Assembly: GCA_024276695.1 (NCBI GenBank)
Contig: JAJRWR010000007.1
Coordinates: 1 to 55,978, forward strand
Reading direction: 5' to 3'
Length of the DNA: 55,978 nt
DNA from: an archaeon
Lineage (GTDB): Archaea; Thermoproteota; Nitrososphaeria; Nitrososphaerales; Nitrosopumilaceae
A program made the position numbers and the translations under genes. Shown piece after piece: positions 48,811-55,308 of this stretch. Numbering within the stretch: the stretch's first letter is position 1; every line of letters begins with the position of its first letter. Below the pieces are notes generated by a model. It saw only the letters and a program-made list of their open reading frames with translations. It ran no database searches and was not told where the DNA came from.

Positions 48811-49730
48811 ATGATTAGGGCACCTATAGTTCAAAAGTATGGTTTTAGAAAAAAAAATACTTCATGTATGGATAGTAATACAATTACCGATATTAATACA
48901 GGAGAAATGATTTGTCAAAAGTGTGGCATTGTTTTACAAGATACAGACTCATACGACAGAAGAGACGACATAGCTACAAAAAGTATCAAAGTTGATCAGG
49001 TTGGCAATAGATCATCGCTCAGGTTTCATGACATGGGTCTTGCAACAGTTATTAACAAATTCAATCATGACTCTAAAGGAAAACCCATTGCTTACAAAAT
49101 AAGACAAGATATGCACAGAATGAGATTGTGGGATTCAAGGAGTAAGGCAAAAAACTCTTCAGATCGAAATCTAAGAACTGCTTTATCTGAGATGGATAAA
49201 TTAAAAGAAAAATTATCTTTGTCAGATGCCATTATGGAAAGATCGGCATATCTCTACAGAAAAGCTTCCAAGGCACAATTAATCAGAGGTAGAAAAATTA
49301 ATGGAATACTTGGGGCATGTGTGTATGTAGCATGTAGGGAGATGGATGTACCACGTACAATCATAGATATTTCAAAAAGTCTGCAAGAAAGTAGAGGTTC
49401 GATTGCAAAAAACTATAGAATGTTATTTAACAATCTTAAGATATCTGTATCTGTACAAGATCCAATAAAATGTATTGTAAAAATTGCAAATAATTTAGAA
49501 ATTCCTGAAAATACAACACGAGAAGCTATACATATTTTAGATGCTCTAAAAGAGCGAAGATTAACTGCAGGGAAAAACCTGATGCAGTTGCAGCTACTAT
49601 AATCTATATGGCATGTATCAAAACAGGAATAAATTTATCTCAACAAAAGATTTCAAAAGTATCTGGAATAACAGGAGTAACTATTCGCAATCGCTACAAT
49701 GACTATTTGAAATATGTTAAATTAATTTAA
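48811..49730 (+). pseudogene. TFB transcription initiation factor, broken by a one-base frameshift
   Basis: This is a TFIIB-type factor: a zinc ribbon CQKCGIVLQD (its first pair reads C-x-x-S, so one Cys is replaced by Ser), the B-linker region (FHDMGLATVINKFN), then two cyclin repeats (GACVYVACREMDVPRTIIDIS for the first). The frame stops at 49602 after LTAGKNLMQL. Adding one base in the A5CC run at 49573-49579 restores LTAGKNPDAVAATIIYMAC and 49 further codons to TAA 49728-49730, ending RYNDYLKYVKLI, a normal TFB end. A base-call error is likely. Full length would be about 306 aa. Confidence 0.82.
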
Positions 49731-49877: not shown

Positions 49878-50405
49878 TCATCGGCTAAATCCCTGATTAT
49901 TTATTATATTAATTGTTACTGTGGACTTTATTCCAGGTATTTTTCTAATTTTTTTACTAATAATCTCAGAAATATCATTGTATGTAGGAGCTGTAATTTT
50001 ACAAATTATTTCATAGCTTCCAATCAACATATCAACCTCTACAACTTCTGGAATATCATTTAGACTTTATATCACTACATCTTCTTTTGATTTTAAACAA
50101 TGAATTGTAATAAAGGCTTGAGCCATATAGGTGTCCAATACAGATTGTTCAAGTTCATTTATTTTTAAAATTACAGATTTATCTACCAATAATGTCAAAG
50201 TAGCTCGAATGTTTGAAATTTTCCGTATTCCATTTAATATGTCATGATTAATTTTTTGAACATCAGATGTTTCAACTTTTGTAAGGATATCATATGTTCC
50301 AAATGCACCAAAAGCATTTGTTATGCTAGGAATATTTTTTAGGTTAGAAATTATAGAATTCTCCTTTCCAGATTTACTAACAATTAAAACATAGGCTTTT
50401 GTCAT
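49878..50405 (-). pseudogene. Tandem RAM (AsnC ligand-binding) protein interrupted by in-frame TAA
   Basis: The first RAM domain reads MTKAYVLIVSKSGKENSII... and the second starts at AQAFITIHC. An in-frame TAA at 50067-50069 ends the protein at 112 aa, but the same frame continues with SLNDIPEVVEVDMLIGSYEI to TGA at 49878-49880. This completes a second RAM domain like that of the paralog at 50794-51321. The paralog has Lys at the TAA position, so one A-to-T change (AAA/AAG-like to TAA/TAG class) would explain it. Either a nonsense pseudogene or a substitution error. Stand-alone RAM domains bind small ligands but not DNA. Confidence 0.75.
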
Positions 50406-50413
50406 TAATTCTC

Positions 50414-50653
50414 CTAATTTTGACCTTCAATTCCCATCAATGTAAGAGTAGAACGTACATGTTTGAGTTTTCTCACATTCCAAGTAATTGTTTCTCTAAG
50501 ATCATCACTGTTTTCATTTTCTATCTTTGCAATTATATCATATGCACCAAATGTTCCATGAACTTCTTTTACAGAATCCATATGCTTTAGCGAGTCGATA
50601 ATAGCATCTTCTGAACCCAAATCACAATTAACCAAAACATATGCAGTTCCCAT
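50414..50653 (-). CDS. Single RAM-domain protein (no HTH)
   Basis: The protein is 79 aa, one AsnC-type ligand-binding domain: AYVLVNCDLGSEDAIIDSLK, VKEVHGTFGAYDIIAKIE, VRKLKHVRSTLTLMG. The DNA-binding HTH of Lrp proteins is missing. Such proteins can cap or modulate full-length Lrp regulators by forming mixed oligomers, or act as amino-acid sensors. The gene lies directly upstream (8 bp) of the interrupted tandem-RAM gene. Confidence 0.82.
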   Translation of the reverse strand: MGTAYVLVNCDLGSEDAIIDSLKHMDSVKEVHGTFGAYDIIAKIENENSDDLRETITWNVRKLKHVRSTLTLMGIEGQN

Positions 50654-50793
50654 ATTCTAAATATTCGTAAAAATATATTTAAATAAAACTCATTAAATTC
50701 CTTAAAATTATAATGTTTTATATCTAGAAATCAAACAATTGTATATAATTTTATTCAAACATAAAATATAGACTATCTAAAACAGAATGATAT

Positions 50794-51321
50794 TCAAGAT
50801 TCTTGTTCATTGAGTATGTTCAAAGTCATGCTAGTTTTAATGTGAGGTAAAGATCTAATAGCTTTGGTTAGAACACGATTCAATGTTTTTTCATCTGGTG
50901 CTTCAACCTTACAAATAACATCATAAAATCCAAAAACTACGTCTGCTTCTTTTACTTCGGGTATGTGGCTGAGATTTTTTAATGTCGGATATTCTTCACC
51001 GTTATCACAATGAATTACAACATATGCTTTAGCTGAATTCTGTCCAAGCATCATTCCAATTAATTTTTCTGAGGTTTGAAATAATTCTCCAGATTCTGAA
51101 CGGGTTAGAGTAACTGCAGAATGTATTTTGGGCATGTTGCGAATGTCCACGGTTGCAATTTCTTTGACTTTTTCTTCACTGTCAGCTTCAATTTGGGCAA
51201 CAATATCGTATAGACCAAGTGTACCATAAGCTTCTTTTATCCCTTCAATTTTTTTCAGCGATGAAATAATTTGTTTTTCTGAACCCAAATCACAATTCAT
51301 CATGACATATGCTTTAGGCAT
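50794..51321 (-). CDS. Tandem double RAM-domain protein
   Basis: The protein is 175 aa from ATG 51321 (MPKAYVMMNCDLG); a start 12 nt upstream is also open. Two RAM domains lie in one chain (about 1-78 and 92-170), the second with AYVVIHCDNGEEYPTLKNLSHIP and VFGFYDVICKVEAP. It is likely a pseudo-dimer able to bind different effectors. It is the intact version of the gene broken at 49878-50405. No HTH is present, so it is not a classical regulator by itself. Confidence 0.82.
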   Translation of the reverse strand: MPKAYVMMNCDLGSEKQIISSLKKIEGIKEAYGTLGLYDIVAQIEADSEEKVKEIATVDIRNMPKIHSAVTLTRSESGELFQTSEKLIGMMLGQNSAKAYVVIHCDNGEEYPTLKNLSHIPEVKEADVVFGFYDVICKVEAPDEKTLNRVLTKAIRSLPHIKTSMTLNILNEQES

Positions 51322-51461
51322 TATTTGGCACATCCTACAATTGATAAAATTCGATGTTGAAACATCATTATAATAACACGTAATTAGAATAAAAGACTTC
51401 AGAATAAATTCTCACTTTATTATATACTCGATAATCTCTTGGGATTCTACTTAAATTTAGA

Positions 51462-51812: not shown

Positions 51813-52058
51813 ATGAAAAATGCATATGTGTTAATTAATTGTAATTTAGGAAAAGAAGAAGACATTCTAGCCACATTACGTAGTATAAAATCGGTAAAAG
51901 AAGCACATGAAATATTTGGTGCACATAACAATATTGTAGAGATGTCATCTGAAAATCCAGATACGCTTAGAGAAGACATTACATGGAAAATTCATAGATT
52001 GTTTGATGTCAGTTCCATTCTAACATTAATGGAAACGGGACAAAATCAGGAGGAATGA
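51813..52058 (+). CDS. Single RAM-domain protein, rightward copy
   Basis: The protein is 81 aa, paralog of the protein at 50414-50653 (AYVLINCNLGKEEDILATLRS, VKEAHEIFGAHNNIVEM, WKIHRLFDVSSILTLME). The usual GxYD-like strand reads GAHNN here, so ligand residues may differ. The HTH is missing. It lies between a 31-residue membrane protein and a 44-residue Cys-rich protein in a rightward run. Confidence 0.75.
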   Translation: MKNAYVLINCNLGKEEDILATLRSIKSVKEAHEIFGAHNNIVEMSSENPDTLREDITWKIHRLFDVSSILTLMETGQNQEE

Positions 52059-52088
52059 GGTCTGTCTCAAGGAATTTACAAGCAAGAA

Positions 52089-52223
52089 TTGAATGACTAT
52101 ATTAATTGTCAAACATGTCACAATCCATTACCACACTGTCATTGCAAGTGTCCATATTGTGATGAACGAGATAACTGTGAATGTGCATTGTTTGATGCAG
52201 CAACTGGGGTTAATTTTTTTTAA
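52089..52223 (+). CDS. Eight-cysteine microprotein, copy 1
   Basis: TTG at 52089 is the only usable start; the frame begins right after the RAM gene's TGA. It has 44 codons ending in TAA. Cysteines are at 7, 10, 17, 19, 21, 24, 30 and 32, giving spacing CX2CX6CXCXCX2CX5CXC. His at 11, 16 and 18 may add ligands. The same spacing recurs exactly in the next gene, so this is a real family. It could bind two zinc ions or an Fe-S or Cu cluster. No known family comes to mind. Confidence 0.6.
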   Translation: MNDYINCQTCHNPLPHCHCKCPYCDERDNCECALFDAATGVNFF

Positions 52224-52302
52224 AAAAATGATTAAATTCTAAATAAATTTAAAGGAAAAAAAATACATCTTTAATTTTCATTACACCATATATTGTATTA
52301 AG

Positions 52303-52449
52303 ATGAATGAAGATTATGCAGAATATACAAAATGTATTAGTTGTAACGCATCCTTGTTATTATGTGACTGCAATTGTCCAAAATGTGGTAAAAGAGAATA
52401 TTGTAAATGTAGTCTTATACCAATAACATGGAGTGAATTAGAATACTAA
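52303..52449 (+). CDS. Eight-cysteine microprotein, copy 2
   Basis: ATG at 52303 opens 48 codons. Cysteines at 11, 14, 21, 23, 25, 28, 34 and 36 repeat the spacing of copy 1 without change, while intervening residues differ (CISCNASLLLC versus CQTCHNPLPHC). The C-terminus SLIPITWSELEY differs from copy 1. Tandem duplication with diverged sequence but fixed Cys spacing indicates selection on metal or cluster binding. The next gene starts 21 bp downstream. Confidence 0.68.
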   Translation: MNEDYAEYTKCISCNASLLLCDCNCPKCGKREYCKCSLIPITWSELEY

Positions 52450-52470: not shown

Positions 52471-52767
52471 TTGATAATTTTTTGGTTTCAGATAGGGTTT
52501 GGATTATTCTTGATTTTAATTTTAGTTGCATTAGGAATTAAATTTTCAAAAGAACAAAGCATGGTAGATGATGAAAAGATACTAAGAATAGTTGAAGAAG
52601 AATTAGAACAAGATGGATTAGATCATTATGAATTAAAATCAATCATATCCATAAACAAACCAAATGTGACTTCAGTAATCATCAATGCAGGATATCAAGA
52701 AATCGCATTGGAGATTGATAATAATTCAGAAAAAATAATCAATAAAGAACGAATTGTTAGGCAATAG
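52471..52767 (+). CDS. 98-residue membrane-anchored protein
   Basis: TTG start; an N-terminal membrane helix (about 3-24, IFWFQIGFGLFLILILVALGI) is followed by a charged soluble part (residues 33-98: VDDEKILRIVEEELEQDGLDHYELKS...) with an alternating strand/helix pattern. No family is recognised. It lies in the same rightward run as the Cys-rich microproteins and could be a partner anchored to the membrane. Confidence 0.5.
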   Translation: MIIFWFQIGFGLFLILILVALGIKFSKEQSMVDDEKILRIVEEELEQDGLDHYELKSIISINKPNVTSVIINAGYQEIALEIDNNSEKIINKERIVRQ

Positions 52768-52784
52768 TATTTAAATTAGATTTT

Positions 52785-53226
52785 TTAGATCAATCTGTTA
52801 TCTTCTTTAATGGTGTTTAAAACAATATGAGTTACAGTATTCTCAACATTGGGGATTGTAGATAATTTCTTTACAAAAACACAGAGATTTTCGATCTTTA
52901 AATTTTGCAATAACTATGGTATCGGCATCTCCTGTTATATCATAAACTGCTATCACATTGTCTTGTTTTGCAATCTCATTTTCAATTTCTAACATTTTTC
53001 CTTGTTTGGTTTTAATTTCAATTATTCCTGTAATGTCATATCCAAGTGATTCATGATCAAGTCGAACCGAATATCCTAAAATTATTTTATTTGCTTCAAG
53101 TTTTTTTAATCTAGAAATCATGGTTACAGTAGATATGCCAAATCTTTGAGACAATTGTCGTGCAGACTGTTTTGCATCAACTAACAGATGTTTTAAAATC
53201 GCCACATCTTTATCGTCAATCTTCAT
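52785..53226 (-). pseudogene. Lrp/AsnC regulator, broken by a one-base frameshift
   Basis: An HTH domain (DKDVAILKHLLVDAKQSARQLSQRFGIS, residues 4-31) and RAM domain (GYDITGIIEIKTKQG, VIAVYDITGDADTIVIAKF) are intact up to about residue 115. The frame then ends at 52843. Removing one base from the A5 run at 52875-52879 (T5 on the coding strand) restores FVKKLSTIPNVENTVTHIV and a normal tail to TAA at 52785. It is the only full Lrp in a group of RAM-only genes and could be their DNA-binding partner. A base-call insertion is likely. Confidence 0.8.
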
Positions 53227-55000: not shown

Positions 55001-55117
55001 TCATGGATCTGTTTTGACCCAATACATTCTCTCACTACAGTTTGGACATTTTACATTAGCCTTGTAATTTCGAAAAGTCACCAACACATCACAATTCTTA
55101 CAATTCCAAGTTGACAT
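55001..55117 (-). CDS. 38-residue zinc-ribbon microprotein
   Basis: ATG at 55117 opens 38 codons. Two CxxC pairs, C6/C9 (NCKNCD) and C24/C27 (KCPNCS), are separated by 14 residues, a classic zinc ribbon. The start and stop are clean. It occupies most of the gap between 54920 and 55308. Such small rubredoxin/zinc-ribbon proteins are common in archaea, with mostly unknown function. Confidence 0.6.
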   Translation of the reverse strand: MSTWNCKNCDVLVTFRNYKANVKCPNCSERMYWVKTDP

Positions 55118-55308
55118 AACTACAATATTGCAATTGATACTTTTGTAATTATCAGTAAATTCTTCTAAACACATCATGTTTTCTTTTTTAAAAATAAAAA
55201 TTCCATTTTAGAACACCTAAAAATTTATCAACTTTTTTAAATTAATTTGAATAAACGTAAAGAGAAATCAAACTAACGCTTATCATTCTGAGATGATAAT
55301 ATTGTACA

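Follow-up and report, generated by a model that had tools for sequence, protein, structure and literature searches.

Small zinc-finger micro-proteins with C(P)XCG knuckles and fewer than 70 residues have been described in haloarchaea (HVO_2753, HVO_0758 and others), where nine of the 14 tested were reported to bind zinc (PMC11241148). In Halobacterium, a small zinc finger, Brz, is encoded directly upstream of bop and is described as regulating it (PMC2253796). Among the 2-oxoacid:ferredoxin oxidoreductases, the larger enzymes carry a small, cysteine-rich ferredoxin-like domain V, and structures from S. tokodaii are reported to reveal two-subunit enzymes that lack this domain and have a large pocket near their sole [4Fe-4S] cluster; the two-subunit form is also described as relatively oxygen-tolerant, unlike most of the enzyme family (PMC5020499).

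Here we describe a family of small archaeal proteins with eight cysteines, two members of which are encoded side by side in a 55,978-nucleotide stretch of Nitrosopumilaceae DNA (contig JAJRWR010000007.1; “the window” refers to this whole stretch). Among the papers surfaced by our literature searches, none described such a family or any small zinc protein linked to korA.

A tandem pair of eight-cysteine genes

The two window genes share a motif that reads as an imperfect repeat, in which C-X2-C-X6-C-X-C is followed, after one residue, by C-X2-C-X5-C-X-C (Table 1). Most of their other residues differ, as the initial annotation had remarked, and the two proteins are 27% identical in our alignment A1. 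That annotation presented a tandem pair of adjacent genes encoding 44 and 48 residues with identical spacing. While the spacing, the adjacency and the second length all hold, the first gene probably encodes 53 residues, and the pair gives a partial picture, with two further copies on other contigs of the genome. The longer reading of gene 1 is based on comparison with four relatives (L223, L224, L225 and L227), which start at the homologous position with ATG and continue with TCA/TCT-CAA. At this position the window reads CTG, separated by three bases from the stop codon of the upstream RAM gene and lying downstream of a GGAGG. In the same four loci, a relative of the 98-residue ORF lies behind the counterpart of gene 2.

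Table 1 The paired eight-cysteine genes and their immediate surroundings in the window
Feature	Position	Strand	Description
Gene 1 (paralogue type P1)	52062..52223	+	53 aa, likely CTG start; C-X2-C-X6-C-X-C-X-C-X2-C-X5-C-X-C; tail ATGVNFF, ATGG in near relatives
Gene 1 as first called	52089..52223	+	TTG start, 44 aa; no GGAGG-like site directly 5'; homologous start of relatives further upstream
GGAGG, possible ribosome-binding site of gene 1	52049..52053	+	Sequence reading
Gene 1 eight-cysteine motif	52107..52184	+	Codon-pattern match
Gene 2 (paralogue type P2)	52303..52449	+	48 aa; cysteine spacing of gene 1; N-terminus MNEDYAEYTK; without GG tail
Gene 2 eight-cysteine motif	52333..52410	+	Codon-pattern match
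Stand-alone Lrp/AsnC RAM-domain gene	51813..52058	+	Directly 5' of gene 1; Pfam AsnC_trans_reg
98-aa ORF	52471..52767	+	3' of gene 2; one N-terminal hydrophobic stretch (by eye)

At its other end, gene 1 appears disturbed. Of 11 relatives compared, ten end in TGG (ATGG in L223-L227), and L239 is altered as well; in the window gene a frame change within a run of G produces the ATGVNFF tail, which could be either a real change or an assembly error. Elsewhere in the window, a TFB-like gene (named by eye; 48811-49730) looks split, with a 263-residue ORF ending at 49602 and an apparent C-terminal part beginning at 49608 in another frame. An Lrp gene (52785-53226, minus strand) likewise looks frame-shifted near its end, where a 127-residue ORF ends oddly and what looks by eye like the C-terminus of an Lrp runs on in a different frame, within the ORF at 52785-52910. 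The frame changes in these three genes, gene 1 included, suggest indel errors of a draft assembly, or decay.

The RAM-domain gene upstream of gene 1 matches AsnC_trans_reg at 23.9 bits (E 3.8e-5), slightly below the gathering score of 25. Together with ORFs on the minus strand at 50067-51333, it makes up four RAM-type ORFs without a DNA-binding domain beside the full Lrp gene, two tested with Pfam and the rest assigned by mutual similarity, and groups of this kind recur in relatives. A separate 58-residue ORF (55001-55177, minus strand) contains two C-X2-C knuckles and is weakly zinc-ribbon-like.

Extent, conservation and selection of the family

A codon-pattern search for the spacing gave four matches in the host genome (1.56 Mb in 41 contigs) and a reversed-pattern control gave none, which excludes a chance origin of the spacing. 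Extended to 61 genomes, comprising the host and 60 relatives, the same search matched 45 genomes (control, 0), of which 44 remained once microsatellite matches were filtered out; the 16 matches in one genome (G019) were false, arising from a TGC/TGT microsatellite, and later pattern scans filtered such repeats too. The pattern search proposed by the initial annotation thus finds the spacing to be widespread, and the refuting outcome it had named, absence of the spacing from every relative, did not occur. With a profile built from 14 rows, 228 of the 300 class genomes had a match at E 0.001, and a 36-row profile of main members, defined below by their position, gave E values below 1e-12 in at least 26 genomes from other classes of the phylum, where many matches near E 1e-3 were left out of the membership. 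A scan of genome contigs returned 282 relatives, the best 80 of which all had Thaumarchaeota- or Nitroso-type titles, and in one scan of viral contigs 18 pattern matches included no relatives.

No Pfam or NCBIfam model scored above its curated cut-off for the window pair or the 36 members, no solved structure in the PDB was matched significantly by sequence or profile, and the best PHROGs match to five window proteins had an E value of 0.073. The earlier suggestion of a new protein family is upheld in that the family is real and has no such model; it is probably missing from Pfam and NCBIfam because it is small.

Across 36 diverse rows (alignment A2), a C-terminal T-G and seven cysteines never vary, and the eighth cysteine is conserved in more than 90%. 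Exact spacing is kept in 35 rows, the single exception having an aspartate at the seventh cysteine, which would be tolerable for either zinc or an Fe-S cluster. Eight cysteines that hardly vary, arranged in two C-X2-C-X5/6-C-X-C halves, are most naturally read as binding metal. An AlphaFold2 prediction for one main member (L137, 26 rows) gave no usable fold (mean pLDDT 61.6, pTM 0.33), in agreement with reported difficulties of AlphaFold2, which is said to misjudge the metal sites of such micro-proteins (PMC11241148). All 36 proteins are acidic, with a mean net charge of -5.2 (range -11 to -2), which argues against a nucleic-acid binder.

The family divides into a main member and three types of side copy: P1 (gene 1), P2 (gene 2) and P3, found on another contig of the host genome (C7, L001). 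Summed over pairs, differences at codon positions 1, 2 and 3 amounted to 237, 143 and 421 for the gene 1 type (eight distinct sequences), 214, 151 and 491 for the gene 2 type (ten) and 382, 232 and 833 for the third type (11). The excess of third-position and synonymous changes implies purifying selection on all three.

The C-terminus of the main member is conserved too. Tails in A2 read TGG in 27 rows, TGGG in seven and TGA in two, and the 80 best loci of the genome scan end in ATGG (68), ATGA (9), TTGG (1), TGGE (1) or TGGG (1); relatives of P1 retain the tail and P2 and P3 lack it. ThiS, MoaD and the SAMPs work through a C-terminal di-glycine, and since the tail is exactly TGG in 69 of these 80 loci, a tail-conjugated or sulphur-carrier protein of this kind was considered. 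A strict C-terminal GG is not kept, however, with GA (9 of 80), GGE (1) and GGG (1 of 80 and 7 of 36) all tolerated, and a beta-grasp fold would be unexpected in about 47 residues, making such a function highly improbable.

Gene order with korAB

The 80 best of the 282 genome-scan loci all have korA 3' of the main member on the same strand. The projected korA start lies between -30 and 150 bases away in 79 of them (the korA match in L119 is incomplete), and in the 63 loci with a readable ATG the ATG-based gap is -20 to 70 bases. In the host genome the main member lies on contig C12, 49 bases 5' of korA. Where the downstream genes were identified (L137), they matched the NCBIfam equivalog models for KorA (NF041170, 866 bits, cut-off 800) and KorB (NF041171, 439 bits, cut-off 423), subunits of the archaeal 2-oxoacid:ferredoxin oxidoreductase. 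Upstream, a divergent D-hydroxyacid dehydrogenase-like gene (by eye) was present in 75 of the 80 loci, but many loci from more distant genomes showed none. In Nitrosopelagicus-type loci (L067-L070, L073-L075 and similar), the small gene appears to touch or overlap korA, with an ATG-based gap of -20 to 2, which may reflect translational coupling.

This arrangement extends well beyond close relatives. In 25 genomes of the class chosen to span families, korA was linked to 24 of the 25 matches with E values of about 1e-8 or better (rounded; the weakest match counted is 1.1e-8), lying within 150 bases in 23 cases and at 272 in one. The unlinked exception (L164) comes from a genome with two copies, the other of which is linked to korA. 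Six of the 31 matches obtained at E 0.01 in this set, with E values of 5e-4 to 0.0084, were taken as chance and left uncounted; five of these six (L168, L170-L173) had no korA. In other classes of the phylum, korA was linked in 19 of 20 loci taken from the at least 26 genomes with matches. The exception (L211) encodes an eight-cysteine protein with an ATGG tail and has no korA within 8.1 kb; its neighbours are peptidyl-tRNA hydrolase-like and tRNA pseudouridine synthase-like ORFs (named by eye). Retention of gene order across classes, together with a fixed spacing and a fixed non-cysteine tail, is atypical of metallothioneins and speaks against a store or chaperone for zinc, copper or iron that travels with korAB by happenstance. 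The density of cysteines, the four copies in one genome and the large amounts of copper handled by ammonia oxidisers would suit a store, but on balance we consider one very unlikely.

The side copies are placed differently. None of their 19 loci, examined over 4.4-8.7 kb each, has korA nearby, and hence the window pair is linked to KorAB by similarity only; from that similarity and the phyletic spread, we infer that genes 1 and 2 are duplicates within a family whose main member adjoins korAB. At E 1e-20 or better, a KorA search of the host genome gave a single match and so no indication that the side copies have another enzyme of this class to serve. P1 instead keeps company with RAM genes: among 11 P1-type or P1-like loci, seven (L223-L227, L240, L242) have such a gene ending directly 5' on the same strand, three (L236, L238, L239) have one no more than about 400 bases away, and L237 is the one without. 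The RAM neighbour pointed out by the initial annotation is thus real for gene 1 and for the majority of its relatives; the better functional clue, the korAB link of the main member, had been missed. In Halobacterium salinarum, Lrp is reported to induce korAB, and in Sulfolobus solfataricus an Lrp is reported to activate the por operon (PMC2894021); a functional loop between RAM/Lrp proteins and KorAB is plausible. A regulator of korAB expression would fit the coupling of P1 to a RAM gene, the position upstream of korA in the linked loci and the precedent of Brz at bop. Yet the proteins are acidic in 36 of 36 rows, and a conserved C-terminal tail and a fusion to a NifU-like domain would be hard to explain, which makes direct regulation a decidedly doubtful reading.

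This fusion occurs in two loci (L005 and L006), again 5' of korA, and was seen in one family of the order (f12). The fused protein has a NifU-like domain (34.2 and 29.9 bits; Pfam cut-off 27) and ends in the eight-cysteine part. The fusion could also suggest an electron carrier, in which the eight cysteines would hold Fe-S clusters, perhaps two, and receive electrons from KorB, either replacing ferredoxin or en route to it. Gene order with a ferredoxin-reducing enzyme, and a two-subunit KorAB without a ferredoxin-like domain, would be in keeping with such a role. Against it, the 36 members gave no match at E 0.1 to the ferredoxin models of Pfam and NCBIfam, one of which a 2[4Fe-4S] ferredoxin should match, the spacing is to our knowledge no ferredoxin motif, and the C-P-Y-C-G knuckles resemble those of zinc ribbons. 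We therefore regard an electron carrier as unlikely.

In 22 korA loci drawn from other families in the phylum, the eight-cysteine protein was never upstream of korA. Four of these (L278, L280, L282, L294) have a different small protein in the same slot, with six cysteines and no Pfam match above cut-off, whose gene ends at korA, overlapping or touching it; the other 18 have neither protein. Six-cysteine frames upstream (L281) and downstream (L271) of korA were taken as spurious and left uncounted. The occurrence of two unlike cysteine-rich proteins in one slot suggests a common need of the enzyme.

A partner of this kind is not universal and not obligatory for KorAB. Among 24 genomes searched for KorA, most of them chosen for the apparent absence of the small gene, 13 scored above the cut-off, one being the window's own genome. 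The remaining 12, all of the class, yielded no eight-cysteine gene by search or upstream of korA, where fewer than 400 bases were available in two loci (L244, L247); one of them (G045) gave a single match, at E 5e-4, away from korA. Six of the 12 belong to one family (f10), and losses therefore look clustered.

A proposed role and its relation to known proteins

A partner that stabilises or matures the enzyme fits best with a cysteine-rich, acidic protein that is encoded 5' of korAB, keeps a fixed tail and can be fused to a NifU-like domain. We consider it probable, if not strongly so, that the family is a metal-binding accessory or maturation protein of KorAB, the metal probably being zinc. 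Under such a model, the two tandem C-X2-C-X5/6-C-X-C halves would most likely hold two metal ions, the ATGG tail of the main member would be the likely contact with the enzyme, and the small protein would stabilise or mature KorAB around KorB's one exposed [4Fe-4S] cluster, occupying the place of the ferredoxin-like domain carried by larger enzymes. P1 would be a duplicate that became attached to an amino-acid-sensing RAM gene, its tail retained in relatives, and P2 a duplicate that lost the tail; the two copies may act on KorAB as well, tuning it, or may serve the RAM protein. Adjacency of genes is, however, not proof of binding.

A more far-reaching version, which we put forward tentatively and think somewhat unlikely, is that the two-subunit enzyme has an unrecognised third subunit, a metal protein of about 45 residues kept across classes, which fills the empty pocket of the ferredoxin domain and either guards the exposed [4Fe-4S] cluster or loads it. 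Duplication in marine ammonia oxidisers would then have given rise to RAM-linked copies through which amino-acid sensing is coupled to the enzyme. In ammonia-oxidising archaea, KorAB has a central place in carbon metabolism. If a conserved small partner exists, it would alter the way in which KorAB is expressed, purified and assayed, and would make the loading and protection of its single exposed cluster testable. More generally, a real and widespread protein family can remain outside Pfam and NCBIfam.

How new is the family? The initial annotation held that the spacing matches no zinc finger, ferredoxin or metallothionein known to it, which is borne out in that no model exceeds its cut-off, although the family is not wholly alien, its C-X2-C-G and C-P-X-C-G knuckles being zinc-ribbon-like. 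The stretch with both knuckles weakly matches Zn_ribbon_3 (PF13248) and other zinc ribbons; eight of 36 members match Zn_ribbon_3 below threshold at E 0.1, with a best E value of 0.0004, and row 1 scores 18.4 bits against a gathering cut-off of 27. A zinc ribbon has four cysteines, whereas these proteins have eight. The best PDB profile match, a ZZ-type zinc finger (a chain of 7dd9; E 0.083, not significant), has C-X2-C where the family has C-X-C. Domain V of the larger oxidoreductases is likewise small and cysteine-rich and belongs to the same enzyme family (PMC5020499), but the eight-cysteine proteins match no ferredoxin model. Brz of Halobacterium salinarum, likened here by description rather than by sequence, is similarly a small zinc finger encoded immediately 5' of its target gene, and acts as the bop regulator (PMC2253796). 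Close in kind are the haloarchaeal C(P)XCG micro-proteins: the main member of the host genome has the knuckles CVECG and CPYCG, although the first G or the P is absent from several other rows. Two extra C-X-C pairs, the T-G-G tail and the fixed place before korA set the family apart from them, a distinction drawn from these features rather than from direct sequence comparison. Small zinc-finger micro-proteins are thus a known archaeal kind, within which this family is new and has a specific link to an enzyme.
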